DNA of 64,000 nt from Aeromonas rivuli (lineage in GTDB: Bacteria > Pseudomonadota > Gammaproteobacteria > Enterobacterales > Aeromonadaceae). The notes below the pieces were generated by a model. The model searched no databases. It was not told where the DNA came from and was given only the letters and a program-made list of their open reading frames with translations. The stretch is from positions 62,727-126,726 of the forward strand of contig NZ_CDBJ01000054.1 in assembly GCF_000820045.1 (NCBI RefSeq). Reading direction: 5' to 3'. This document shows, piece by piece, positions 30,563-35,249 of this stretch. How positions within the stretch are numbered: position 1 is the stretch's first letter; every line of letters starts with the position of its first letter. A program made the position numbers and the translations under genes.

Positions 30563-32485
30563 TCAGGATGACTTGCGTACCCTGAGATACCATTCGGAGA
30601 GCAGCCGCACCTGTTTACGGGTGTAGCCCTTCTCCATCATCCGCTCGACAAAGTTATCGTGTTTCTTCTGCTCTTCCGCCGAGGTCTTGCTGTTGAAGGA
30701 GATAACCGGCAGCAGCTCCTCGGTATTGGAGAACATCTTCTTCTCGATGACGGTGCGCAGCTTCTCGTAGCTGGTCCAGTTCGGATTGCGACCGGCGTTG
30801 TTGGCCCGGGCCCGCAGCACGAAGTTGACGATTTCGTTGCGAAAATCTTTCGGGTTGCTGATGCCTGCCGGTTTTTCTATCTTCTCCAGCTCGCTGTTGA
30901 GGGAGGCGCGGTCAAACAGCTGGCCCGTCTCTGGATCCCGATACTCCTGATCCTGGATCCAGAAATCCGCATAAGTGACGTAGCGATCGAAGATGTTCTG
31001 GCCGTACTCCGAGTAGGACTCGAGATAAGCGGTCTGGATCTCCTTGCCGATGAACTCCACGTAACGCGGGGTGAGGTAGCCCTTGATGAACTCCAGGTAG
31101 CGATCGTGGATCTCTTGCGGGAACTGTTCCCGCTCTATCTGTTGCTCCAGCACATAGAAGAGATGCACCGGGTTGGCCGCGACCTCGGCATGATCGAAGT
31201 TGAACACCCGCGACAATATCTTGAATGCGAAGCGGGTCGACAGGCCATTCATCCCCTCATCGACCCCGGCATAATCCCGGTACTCCTGATAGCTTTTTGC
31301 TTTGGGATCCGTGTCTTTGAGACTCTCGCCATCATAGACCCGCATCTTGGAGTAGAGGCTGGAGTTCTCCGGCTCCTTGAGTCGTGACAAGACGGTAAAC
31401 TGGCCGAGGAGCTCCAGGGTTCCCGGGGCGCACTTGGCCTCGGTCAGTTCGCTGTTGGTGAGCAACTTCTCGTAGATTTTCACCTCTTCCGAGACGCGCA
31501 GGCAGTATGGCACCTTGACGATATAGACGCGGTCGAGGAAGGCTTCGTTGTTGCGGTTGTTCTTGAAGTGCTGCCATTCGGATTCGTTGGAGTGAGCCAG
31601 CAAGATACCGTCAAAGGGGAGGGCAGAGAGCCCTTCGGTGCCGTTGTAGTTGCCTTCTTGCGTCGCGGTCAGCAGCGGGTGCAGCACCTTGATGGGGGCC
31701 TTGAACATCTCGACGAACTCCATCATGCCCTGGTTGGCCTTGCACAGGGCCCCGGAGTAGGAGTAAGCATCGGCGTCATCCTGGGCAAAGTGTTCCAGCA
31801 TGCGGATATCGACCTTGCCAACCAGGGAAGAGATGTCCTGATTGTTCTCATCACCGGGCTCCGTCTTGGCGATGGCGATCTGGTGCAGGATGGAGGGGTT
31901 GATCTTCTCTACCTTGAACTTGCTGATGTCACCACCGTATTCGGTGAGACGCTTTGCCGCCCAGGGAGACATGATGGGACGCAGGTAACGGCGGGGTATG
32001 CCGTACTCTTTCTCCAGCAGCTCACCGTCCTCCTCCATGTCAAACAGGCAGAAGGGGTGATCGTTGACCGGGGAACCTTTGATCCGGTAAATGGGCACCT
32101 TCTGCATCAGGGATTTGAGCTTCTCGGCCAGGGAGGATTTACCGCCGCCAACCGGACCCAGCAGATAGAGGATCTGTTTCTTCTCCTCCAGCCCCTGGGC
32201 CGAGTGTTTGAGGTAGGAGACGATCTGTTCGATGGCTTCTTCCATGCCATAGAAATCTTTGAATGCCGGATAGCGTGCAACGACTCGATTTGAGAAGAGG
32301 CGACTGAGTCGTGGATTTGTGGCGGTATCAACCATCTCGGGATCGCCGATGGCGACCAGTAGACGTTCGGCGGCGGAGGCGTAGCAGGATTTATCCTGTT
32401 TGCACATGTCCAGGAACTCCTGAATGCTGTACTCCTCTTCCCTGGCTTGCTCATAACGCTGTTGGTAATGCTCGAAGATGCCCAT
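30563..32485 (-). CDS. yeaG: PrkA family serine protein kinase YeaG
   Basis: A 640-residue PrkA-type protein (644 aa in E. coli YeaG). The N-terminal AAA-like domain has its P-loop LGPVGGGKSS at residues 109-118. The C-terminal part corresponds to the PrkA kinase-like domain, with FKILSRVFNFDHAEVAANP and the final RKQVRLLSEWYLRVRKS. In E. coli the yeaGH operon belongs to the RpoS general stress and nitrogen-starvation response. The start ATG follows GAGGGCTAAGTT. It is the first gene of yeaG-yeaH-ycgB; the operon promoter should lie in the 430-nt region upstream. Confidence 0.95.
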   Translation of the reverse strand: MGIFEHYQQRYEQAREEEYSIQEFLDMCKQDKSCYASAAERLLVAIGDPEMVDTATNPRLSRLFSNRVVARYPAFKDFYGMEEAIEQIVSYLKHSAQGLEEKKQILYLLGPVGGGKSSLAEKLKSLMQKVPIYRIKGSPVNDHPFCLFDMEEDGELLEKEYGIPRRYLRPIMSPWAAKRLTEYGGDISKFKVEKINPSILHQIAIAKTEPGDENNQDISSLVGKVDIRMLEHFAQDDADAYSYSGALCKANQGMMEFVEMFKAPIKVLHPLLTATQEGNYNGTEGLSALPFDGILLAHSNESEWQHFKNNRNNEAFLDRVYIVKVPYCLRVSEEVKIYEKLLTNSELTEAKCAPGTLELLGQFTVLSRLKEPENSSLYSKMRVYDGESLKDTDPKAKSYQEYRDYAGVDEGMNGLSTRFAFKILSRVFNFDHAEVAANPVHLFYVLEQQIEREQFPQEIHDRYLEFIKGYLTPRYVEFIGKEIQTAYLESYSEYGQNIFDRYVTYADFWIQDQEYRDPETGQLFDRASLNSELEKIEKPAGISNPKDFRNEIVNFVLRARANNAGRNPNWTSYEKLRTVIEKKMFSNTEELLPVISFNSKTSAEEQKKHDNFVERMMEKGYTRKQVRLLSEWYLRVRKSS

Positions 32486-32888
32486 AACTTAGCCCTCGTT
32501 ATAGTCGCTTACCCTAAAATGACCGGTTTCTTACCCTTGTTGTACTTTCCTCTTAAGCCTAGTCAACAGCCCCCAGTAATCCATCACCGTTAACGGGATT
32601 AAATCGGTTGGCTCGCTTCCCTGGCCCTTTGGGTGGGAGGCAGTCAGCAGATGCTGTATGTTACTGACTGTTAAATTATTTCTGCCACGATAGCTGGGTA
32701 AATGTCAAAGAGATAAAAAATAAATGTTTCATCATTCTTCAATAAAAAAGTACGAATGGGATGAGGGAGAGGATCGCTATCGCCCCAGGGCAGGCCAGCC
32801 GTGCCTTGGGGAATGTCACAGTGGAATGTGCTTTACGTAAGCGTTAACGTAATGCTCAAAACTTAGAGTCTTGAGTCTAATTTTTACA
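32486..32888. other. Intergenic region upstream of yeaG and of the candidate sRNA
   Basis: AT-rich region expected to hold the yeaG promoter on the minus strand. A 20-nt inverted repeat TTACGT-N8-ACGTAA lies at 32833-32852, about 37 nt before the -35 box of the candidate sRNA. It is followed by a direct repeat of GAGTCT around 32865-32878. I see no protein-coding ORF here. Confidence 0.5.
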
Positions 32889-32917
32889 TTGACGCTACAT
32901 TCAGGCTGCTCTAGATT
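32889..32917 (+). promoter_or_regulatory. Sigma70-like promoter of the candidate sRNA
   Basis: TTGACG and TAGATT hexamers separated by exactly 17 nt. Transcription would begin near 32924. No plus-strand protein gene lies downstream before a strong terminator. Confidence 0.6.
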
Positions 32918-32923
32918 GGCCCT

Positions 32924-33037
32924 GTGTTCGGTGCTGCGCTGCTTTAGCAAGAAGGCGTCTCAGTGTCCGAAAACAAAGCTCTGTTTAAGCACGTTTCCGT
33001 TGGCTTGACCCTCGCATCTGCGAGGGTCTTATTTTTT
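32924..33037 (+). ncRNA. Candidate small regulatory RNA (about 114 nt)
   Basis: A good promoter is followed within 115 nt by a textbook intrinsic terminator: GACCCTCGC/GCGAGGGTC, 9 bp, loop ATCT, then TTATTTTTT ending at 33037. No plausible complete ORF lies between. The 5' part can close by TTCGG (32927-32931) pairing with CCGAA (32967-32971). The middle, around 32972-33005, is left single-stranded and could be the targeting region. The U-rich tail suits Hfq binding. The terminator has a T tract only on the plus strand, so it does not serve recQ on the other side. I do not recognise the RNA as one of the well-known enterobacterial sRNAs. A GTG-started frame (32963 onward) runs through the terminator and looks accidental. 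Confidence 0.55.
33007..33037 (+). terminator. Terminator of the candidate sRNA
   Basis: Perfect 9-bp GC-rich stem with a 4-nt loop, followed by TTATTTTTT on the plus strand. The minus strand has no T tract after the stem. Confidence 0.85.
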
Positions 33038-33125
33038 CGGCGCAGGCCCTCCTGTTATCCTCCTTATCTCTTCAGCACGCTAACCGGCATTCTTGGCCGG
33101 AATCCCCAAGACGGAACAAATGAGT

Positions 33126-35054
33126 CTATTTGGAGACTTGCACACCATAGGCCTGGGTCACCAGTGCCATCACCTGCGCAAAGGGCACCTCGCTCAGCCT
33201 CCCGAAGCCAGCCAGCTTGCCCGCCTTGAGGCGGGTGGTGAGCGGCGTGCTGATGCCGCACAGGAAGCGCGCCAGCACCCTGGGTGTTGGTTGGGGCAAC
33301 AGGCTCGCCAGCGGATCGCACCAGGCGCGGATCCCGGCTTCATTGGGCAGTTGTGGGGCGAGGTGAACAGGCAGCTCCGCCACCTGGCCGCGACAGACCG
33401 AACAGTGACCGCATAAGGCCGGCGCTTGCTCATCGGCAAAATGGTGGGCAAGGGAGTGGCTCAGGCAGGTGGGTGAGGTGAAGAAGGCGAGCAGGCCTTG
33501 CAACCTGGCCAGTTCGCTCTGCTCCTTTTGCTCGAACAGAGCATGAAGCTCATCGGCGAGGACATCGAGGCTGCTCGGTGCATTCTGCACCTGATAAACC
33601 TCGGTCATCTGCTTGCTCTCCAGTTCGATGAGCCCCTGTTGCTGCAGATAGTCGAGGGCGGCCACGGCGCGGGATCGTTCCCCCTGATACCCCTGCCAGA
33701 GGGCCTCAAAATCCATGGTGCACCAGCTGCGAGCCTGAGGGGCAGAGGCGAACAGGGCCTCGAGAAAGTGGCGACGCCCCTCGCCAAAACGCGCCAATAT
33801 GGCGGCTTTGTCTGCGATGAACTTGAAGCGATAGTCGGCAAAATAGCTATAAGCCGGGCTCAGCACGCCGGCCAGTTCCAGATAGACCAGGAGTGTCTTG
33901 AGGGGAAGCTGGCGAATATTGGTCTCGTTGGAGAGGCGCAGCAGCACGAACTCCCAGGACTCCCCCGCAGGGGGCAGTTGGGCCAACAGTTGACGGATGG
34001 CGGCGCGGTCCGGGGTATCCCCATAGACGAAGTTCTCCAGCACCGGCAGCTGAGCCCGGTTGGCCAGCACAGTGCAGTGGGAGAGCTGGCCATCTCGCCC
34101 GGCACGGCCTATCTCCTGGCTGTAGTTCTCGATGGACTTGGGCAAGTCGTAATGGATGACCCGGCGAATATCGGCCTTGTCTATCCCCATGCCAAAGGCG
34201 ATGGTGGCGACAATGCAGTCGAGCTGGCCAGTCATGAAGGACTGCTGTATCTCCCGGCGAAGATCAGCGCCCAGCCCGGCATGATAGGCACGGGCCCGAA
34301 ACCCGGCCCGGGCCAGATTGGCGGCGCACGCCTCGGCGGTGTGTTGCAGGGTGACATAGACGATGGTCGGGGCGCCAGGCGCTCGCCCTATCTCCTGCGC
34401 CAGCCAGCGGTCACGCAAGCCGGGTTCAATAGGCACAACATTCAAGTCCAGATTGGGGCGGTAGAAACCGGTCACCACCAGCCCCTGATCGTCGATATCG
34501 AACTTGCGTTGCATGTCCTGCATCACGGCCCGCGTGGCGGTGGCGGTCAGCAGCAGTACCTGGGGGATATTAAGAGCGCGCCTGTGTTCGGGCAGCTTGA
34601 GGTAATCGGGACGAAAGTTGTGGCCCCACTCCGAGATGCAGTGCGCTTCGTCCACCACCATCAACGAGAGCGGCACCCCGGCGATGAAGCGGCGAAAGCG
34701 CTCGTTTTTGAGTCGCTCGACCGAGATCATCAGGATCTTGAGCTCGCCAGCCTCTATCTGCCGCATCACCTCACGGCTCTGCTCCGGGGTCAGGCTCGAA
34801 TCCAGCGTGGCTGCGGCTATCCCTTTGCGCTGCAAGAAGGCGAGCTGATCCTGCATCAGGGCGATGAGCGGGGAGATGACCAGGGTCAGGTGGGGCAGGG
34901 CCAGGGCGGGCAGTTGATAGCAAAGAGACTTGCCGGAGCCTGTCGGGAAGATGGCCGCGGCGCTGCGTCCTGCCAATATCTGCTCCATGACTGCCTGTTG
35001 CCCGGGTCTGAGCTGGGTGAAACCGAAGTGTTGTTCAAGCAAAGAGGCGATCAT
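33126..35054 (-). CDS. RecQ family ATP-dependent DNA helicase, divergent domain layout
   Basis: A 642-residue helicase of the RecQ superfamily 2 group. Motif I is FPTGSGKSLCYQ, motif II DEAHCISEWGHNFRPDY, motif III LTATAT, and motif VI QEIGRAGRDGQ. Unlike E. coli RecQ, the cysteine cluster typical of the zinc module (TCL, then CGHCSVC near residue 550) follows a long middle region instead of coming directly after the helicase core. I see no HRDC domain. It is therefore a RecQ paralogue, probably in DNA repair or recombination, and not canonical RecQ. The start at 35054 follows CAGGA; an in-frame ATG at 35081 behind AGGTGG is a real alternative. Confidence 0.85.
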   Translation of the reverse strand: MIASLLEQHFGFTQLRPGQQAVMEQILAGRSAAAIFPTGSGKSLCYQLPALALPHLTLVISPLIALMQDQLAFLQRKGIAAATLDSSLTPEQSREVMRQIEAGELKILMISVERLKNERFRRFIAGVPLSLMVVDEAHCISEWGHNFRPDYLKLPEHRRALNIPQVLLLTATATRAVMQDMQRKFDIDDQGLVVTGFYRPNLDLNVVPIEPGLRDRWLAQEIGRAPGAPTIVYVTLQHTAEACAANLARAGFRARAYHAGLGADLRREIQQSFMTGQLDCIVATIAFGMGIDKADIRRVIHYDLPKSIENYSQEIGRAGRDGQLSHCTVLANRAQLPVLENFVYGDTPDRAAIRQLLAQLPPAGESWEFVLLRLSNETNIRQLPLKTLLVYLELAGVLSPAYSYFADYRFKFIADKAAILARFGEGRRHFLEALFASAPQARSWCTMDFEALWQGYQGERSRAVAALDYLQQQGLIELESKQMTEVYQVQNAPSSLDVLADELHALFEQKEQSELARLQGLLAFFTSPTCLSHSLAHHFADEQAPALCGHCSVCRGQVAELPVHLAPQLPNEAGIRAWCDPLASLLPQPTPRVLARFLCGISTPLTTRLKAGKLAGFGRLSEVPFAQVMALVTQAYGVQVSK

Positions 35055-35249
35055 AGGGCGGCATCCTGAGGAAAACCCCATGATACCACCTGGACCCGGC
35101 CAGGATCGGCCAGGGACGCCAAGAGAGTGGCATTTGGCTTCGTTCTGGCGGTTGTTGATATGGTGTTATCTCATTGTTGTGGTTTTTTTGTGATGTGAAA
35201 TGGGATTTTCGTGGTGTATGTGTGGAAAAAAGATGTTGCAGGTGGGATA

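Follow-up and report, generated by a model that had tools for sequence, protein, structure and literature searches.

Positions 32889-33037 of the window, the 64,000-nucleotide stretch of Aeromonas rivuli DNA analysed here, very probably contain a real and new small RNA (sRNA) gene, and our analysis supports an earlier note that had read the locus in this way from the DNA letters alone. We consider it probable that the product is a trans-acting sRNA of Aeromonas and its sister genera that lowers translation of fbp, most likely together with Hfq, that also pairs with the leader of the DUF1302/DUF1329 genes in the species that have them, and whose transcription is probably tuned by LiuR.

Gene anatomy and conservation

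The locus has the layout that the earlier note described. A sigma-70 type promoter, TTGACG-17-TAGATT, lies on the plus strand at 32889-32917 (-35 element TTGACG, 32889-32894; -10 element TAGATT, 32912-32917), and 90 nt separate the -10 element from the hairpin of an intrinsic terminator at 33007-33037, also on the plus strand. This terminator, identified by terminator scan, folding and alignment, consists of a perfect stem of nine pairs followed by a T tract (hairpin GACCCTCGCATCTGCGAGGGTC at 33007-33028, then TTATTTTTTC), and the scan found it on the plus strand only. Both neighbouring protein genes face the other way: prkA (30563-32485; Pfam PF08298/PF06798) and the RecQ-family helicase gene (33126-35081) are on the minus strand. 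With its start placed 7 nt past the -10 element, the predicted plus-strand transcript covers 32924-33037, about 114 nt. It comprises a 5' stem-loop (32924-32974) that retains its shape while its sequence drifts, an invariant core AGCTCTGTTTAAGCACGTTTCCGTT (32977-33001) that we take as the seed region, an overlapping target-pairing segment CGTTTCCGTTGG (32992-33003) that is complementary to sites within the leaders of fbp and DUF1302, and the terminator.

The terminator hairpin folded far better than its shuffled versions (z -7.2; 0/200 as good), as did, to a lesser degree, the whole 116-nt RNA (z -2.7; 2/200 as good). Scanning 31500-34500 gave three promoter-like elements against 1.2 expected (s.d. 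1.1) and four terminator-like elements against 2.7 expected (s.d. 1.7), neither clearly beyond chance. The scan counts are thus not decisive alone, and it is conservation that settles whether the locus is real.

Conservation of the promoter and terminator among relatives, a check that the earlier note had named, was found on both counts. BLAST recovered the locus in all 37 genomes of the genus, including that of the window, and, in the sister group, recovered the core with the terminator in 22 of 23 genomes (E <= 1.3e-5); the single genome without the locus is an assembly that is 84% complete. No BLAST match with E below 0.008 was found in 15 genomes from three further genera of the family, and among 197 genomes drawn from the whole order the matches below E 1e-8 came from the genus and sister group alone. 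An exact search for the 24-mer GCTCTGTTTAAGCACGTTTCCGTT in a collection of 84,980 species returned 45 stretches, from Aeromonas (29), Oceanisphaera (6), Zobellella (5), Oceanimonas (4) and one 'Aeromonadales bacterium'. The 25-nt core was identical in 41/41 BLAST-selected loci (37 genus and 4 sister-group), the 5' part drifted strongly, and the promoter and terminator were kept across these 41 aligned loci and the sister-group loci. In every one of the 53 loci checked, prkA adjoins the sRNA.

At the promoter, the alignment of the 41 loci showed TTTTTACATTGACG..ACATT..TA.ATTG to be constant within the genus and altered in the sister group. The part of this block around the -35 element, TTTTTACATTGACG..ACATT at 32881-32901 of the window, is conserved beyond what a plain promoter would show, with an altered form in the sister group, and a further regulator may bind there.

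The earlier note had not recognised the gene as a known enterobacterial sRNA, and it has no Rfam family match. A covariance-model search found no family at its gathering threshold in the window. Around the locus, six weak matches at E <= 10 (snoRNAs, a lncRNA, a Caenorhabditis sRNA and a CRISPR repeat) included no bacterial sRNA family and were rejected, all being far under their thresholds. Among the literature matches listed, no title or abstract opening described the Aeromonas sRNA. Spot 42 and SgrS of enterobacteria are carbon-metabolism sRNAs with a structured part, a seed and a U-tailed terminator, features that the Aeromonas sRNA shares; it differs from them in lacking an Rfam family match, and its locus, regulators and targets are presumably different from theirs as well. 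For Aeromonas caviae NZ_AP026896.1 (4.9 Mb, a chromosome by its length, filed with plasmids), the gene table, which is incomplete, lists no feature at the sRNA locus.

RNA structure and coding potential

RNA folding reproduced the proposed pairing of the 5' part through UUCGG/CCGAA. To follow this hairpin across species we used three alignments: A1, with 34 of the 41 loci after near-identical ones had been dropped; A2, with the 16 non-Aeromonas matches among the 45 exact-24-mer stretches, in which the invariance of the core is by construction because the loci were found by that 24-mer; and A3, with 19 of the 37 genus loci. The 5' stem was paired in 91.5% of cells in A2, with double changes at eight pairs, and in 92.9% of cells in A3, with double changes at six. 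None of 500 shuffles, which ignore the relatedness of the sequences, scored as high as A2 on any of five measures; for A3, 0/500 did so on three of the five and 4/500 on another, and its number of further pair types was equalled by 301/500. Controls in which the pairing was slid along the alignment had 33-56% of cells paired, far below the true stem, although a slide of +1 in A2 and of -1 in A3 equalled the counts of double-change pairs (8 and 6). RNAalifold found no 5' helix in the mixed alignment A1, in our opinion because the diverged hairpins are misaligned there, and the clade alignments A2 and A3 support the helix. The comparison thus supports a 5' hairpin whose shape is maintained through paired changes.

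The single-stranded middle proposed earlier held only in part. Folding left the conserved seed region mostly unpaired between the structured parts, as had been suggested, but placed part of the middle, in the 3' half of the seed region, in a small and possibly weak hairpin, AAGCACG-UUUC-CGUUGGCUU.

The earlier note also held that no protein gene lies between the neighbours. The only overlap noted is an 88-aa open reading frame starting with GTG on the plus strand (32963-33229), which we judge not to be a gene. A short peptide, or a leader-peptide attenuator, starting from this GTG has in its favour that the window's frame is open and its start plausible, with AGAAGG upstream. Yet the GTG is in frame in only 2 of 53 loci, those of the window and its closest relative; an in-frame stop lies at most 18 nt 5' of the core in 42/53; and reading upstream from the core to the first stop (or for 90 nt) meets no in-frame start in 33/53, the remaining 20 having some in-frame GTG or TTG. 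No same-strand gene follows downstream, and the core is invariant across all codon positions. The frame is thus not conserved, and we reject the peptide reading and find the attenuator scarcely credible. With its own promoter, a Rho-independent terminator and no conserved open reading frame, the locus has by sequence the marks of the sRNA class. The RNA would be a free-standing molecule of 5' hairpin, invariant seed and U-tailed terminator, transcribed from its own promoter and ended at its own terminator, and Hfq would bind the U tail.

Candidate target sites in mRNA leaders

Weak secondary BLAST matches of the sRNA proved to be antisense sites in two leaders, those of fbp (class 1 fructose-bisphosphatase; PF00316, NF006778) and of a DUF1302 gene. 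The second matches in genomes G018 and G036 had been considered as paralogues of the sRNA, an idea that we dropped on finding them antisense to the DUF1302 gene leader. In the 37 genus genomes, the 12-mer CCAACGGAAACG occurs at 73 places: 37 in the sRNA, 23 in the fbp leader, 11 in the DUF1302 leader and 2 elsewhere. The 36 places outside the sRNA compare with 34 for a reversed control pattern, so the count is ordinary and the placement is the striking part. In the window's own genome the 12-mer is found only in the sRNA and the fbp leader, where the site reads ...CAACGCCAACGGAAACGCTCAAAGGAAACATAATG. The two other places were set aside, one lying about 360 nt before an open reading frame (L277) and one overlapping an open reading frame on the opposite strand (L278).

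We scored pairing of the core with 34 genus fbp leaders, leaving out one genome in which the start pattern was missed (G009), one in which a contig ended (G013) and one in which no fbp was found (G030). The 12-mer was present in 23 of the 34. Duplexes of -23.9 to -32.8 kcal/mol were matched by at most 4/200 leader shuffles and at most 4/200 core shuffles in 27 of the 34 leaders. The duplex in the window's own genome (-25.7 kcal/mol) was borderline, with 6/200 leader shuffles and 1/200 core shuffles equalling it; by another scoring, 3/500 shuffles were as good. Three leaders fell short of the mark (L120, L139 and L149) and in three the pairing was absent (L143, L119 and L145, in genomes G006, G014 and G029). 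The duplex footprint covered the fbp Shine-Dalgarno sequence in 12 of the 13 genus leaders drawn, in some by way of loops. Outside the genus, where 13 of 34 regions could be scored and the start pattern missed the rest, none of the sister-group leaders had significant pairing, though the core is kept there. Control of fbp is therefore an apparent Aeromonas trait, and other targets must hold the core fixed in the sister group.

The second candidate target is a gene for a DUF1302 protein (PF06980), followed by one for a DUF1329 protein (PF07044), beside two CoA-transferase subunit genes. The DUF1302 gene is present in 11 of the 37 Aeromonas genomes, and its leader carries the site in 11/11. The predicted duplexes range from -31 to -47 kcal/mol, with at most 1/200 leader shuffles as good, and end 37-45 nt before the start codon, as chosen by us; in the two best leaders, a second block of the core also matches. 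At L039 and L294 (G036), where the DUF1302-DUF1329 genes lie beside the CoA-transferase subunit genes, the DUF1302 leader contains a CA-rich stretch.

No recurrent leader site came from pattern searches with the left part of the core or with its middle part. The middle 12-mer GGAAACGTGCTT was found 68 times across 75 family genomes; the sRNA accounts for 59 of these and the other 9 are scattered, against 6 for the reversed control. A 14-mer match that recurred, GAGCTTAAACAGAG, falls some 400 nt into an open reading frame that we take to be fdhD, and was not counted as a target.

These sites are open to two other readings. The sRNA could be real and fbp not a meaningful target, the leader keeping GGAAACG for a hairpin of its own and the seed serving shorter sites across the whole group. 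Two observations fit such a reading: the sister group retains the core, yet fbp pairing is absent from 13/13 of its scored leaders, and a cis hairpin, CGUUUUC/GGAAACG, is predicted in both fbp leaders that were folded; GGAAACG may be held in it. On short stretches, however, this hairpin was no better than shuffled sequence (z -1.05 and 0.57), in many genomes the complementarity to the sRNA continues past both ends of GGAAACG, and the same 12-mer stands in 11/11 DUF1302 leaders, the best two of which match a second block of the core. We therefore think it unlikely that fbp is a bystander.

The shared 12-mer could instead be a DNA operator at the sRNA, fbp and DUF1302 genes, bound by a transcription factor such as one of the LacI/Cra kind, and not a site of RNA pairing. 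It contains GAAACG, and upstream of fbp it adjoins a palindrome, TGCAAACGTTTTCA, which to our eye resembles a LacI/Cra site. The element itself is not palindromic, however; in the sRNA gene it sits between promoter and terminator, it is antisense to both leaders and abuts the fbp Shine-Dalgarno sequence, and two DUF1302 leaders continue the match in a second core block. An operator is accordingly a very improbable explanation.

The reading that we prefer is RNA pairing. In Aeromonas, CGUUUCCGUUGGC of the sRNA would pair with GCCAACGGAAACG in the fbp leader, possibly where a leader hairpin (CGUUUUC-loop-GGAAACG) presents it in its loop, and the pairing would extend towards or over the Shine-Dalgarno sequence, where its position suggests that it would stop initiation. 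With a core complementary to the fbp mRNA in its start region, the sRNA probably turns fructose-1,6-bisphosphatase down, that is, it would repress rather than activate. Where the DUF1302 gene is present, in 11 species, it would also pair with the leader of the DUF1302/DUF1329 operon.

The region upstream of fbp has further features. The palindrome TGCAAACGTTTTCA, 14 nt long and just 5' of the sRNA site, is identical in 14 aligned Aeromonas regions; L145, which is outside this alignment, lacks it. In the window's own genome (L293:1101-1124) and in 13 other fbp upstream regions, a GC hairpin with a T run after it stands some 55-75 nt before the start codon; all 14 aligned regions have the T run. 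A conserved block farther upstream may be a promoter, which would make this hairpin a leader attenuator; a consensus scan of the region found no plus-strand promoter.

A trans-acting sRNA that lowers fbp has been described in Vibrio tasmaniensis. Vsr217 is reported to act by predicted pairing 5' of the fbp start codon, to be Hfq-dependent in an E. coli assay, and to derive from the MalT-controlled malK 5' UTR, where no Rho-independent terminator was predicted (PMC8265627). The likeness to the Aeromonas sRNA lies in fbp as a candidate target of the latter, by complementarity that is strong in 27/34 genus leaders and borderline in the window's own genome. In contrast to this malK 5' UTR product, the Aeromonas sRNA is free-standing, lies between prkA and a RecQ-family gene that are both on the opposite strand, and has its own terminator and a LiuR-type palindrome. 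Since Vsr217 comes from the malK leader, we set the two side by side by description, as functional counterparts, with no kinship implied; the Aeromonas sRNA is perhaps a second, independent case of sRNA control of fbp.

A palindrome upstream of the promoter

A palindrome resembling an operator, TTTACGTAAGCGTTAACGTAAT, lies at 32832-32853, 35 nt 5' of the -35 element; its form upstream of the promoter is TTTACGTTTACGTTAACGTAAA. It matched a consensus at 16 or more of 22 positions in 34/37 genus loci, centred at -81 or -82, and was absent at this mark from the other 3/37. Among the sister loci 11/16 reached the mark, compared with 0/37 genus and 0/16 sister loci for a control stretch, a contrast that is partly circular because the consensus was drawn from the same loci.

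We read this palindrome as a LiuR-type operator, by our own consensus and not a published motif. LiuR is a MerR-type regulator of branched-chain amino acid breakdown (PMC3223726, PMC5343134). A site matching the locus-derived consensus at 21/22 positions stands before the liu genes of the window's own genome, and the reading follows from this placement and not from counts: the 14-base pattern TTACGTNNACGTAA, with at most one mismatch, occurred at four sites in that genome against five for the reversed control, and these four do not include the copy in the window, which is more degenerate. One of the four heads a cluster that we read as liuABCDE and whose last gene is of the MerR family; this site is flanked by an mmsA-like and an ivd-like gene. 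Another has an ETF-dehydrogenase-like gene on one side and an ETF-subunit gene on the other, a third precedes an acyl-CoA-synthetase-like gene, and the fourth is L263. The acyl-CoA dehydrogenase, MerR and ETF proteins near these sites were assigned with Pfam and the other genes by reading. The sRNA locus thus resembles the LiuR regulon in its palindrome, and differs in that the regulon, in the available portions of the two reports, is described for protein operons with no mention of an sRNA (PMC3223726, PMC5343134).

That the palindrome serves prkA, or nothing, with the sRNA expressed constitutively or through another regulator, is a serious possibility, if not the one we lean to, and it would be compatible with the preferred reading of the sRNA itself. 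The pattern counts do not exceed the control, and prkA diverges from the sRNA across a common intergenic region in 53/53 loci. Against it stands the spacing. Of the 34 genus loci with a site, 33 place it 35 nt from the sRNA -35 element and one 36 nt, and this gap measures 47-49 nt in 12 of 13 sister loci. The gap to the prkA start varies more, with 9 different values (333-347) in the genus and 13 (197-381) in the sister loci, a contrast weakened by the greater room for insertions and deletions in the longer gap. On the reading that we prefer, LiuR would tune transcription of the sRNA through the palindrome at -81, from which it may act by activation or repression.

A named candidate target and a named candidate regulator together offer a testable link from amino acid breakdown to gluconeogenesis. 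More tentatively, the sRNA of these four genera may relay a branched-chain amino acid signal, through LiuR, to sugar synthesis, silencing fbp in Aeromonas by contact between a seed loop and a leader loop and also silencing the DUF1302/DUF1329 genes as an envelope operon; sRNAs that silence fbp would in that case have arisen independently in Vibrio and in Aeromonas, one answering to maltose and the other to amino acids. We regard this fuller picture as doubtful at present.

The sister loci carry a second LiuR-type palindrome (at least 16/22) shortly 3' of the sRNA terminator, for example at L195, L207, L228 and L230; it was present in 12/16 sister loci and in 1/37 genus loci.
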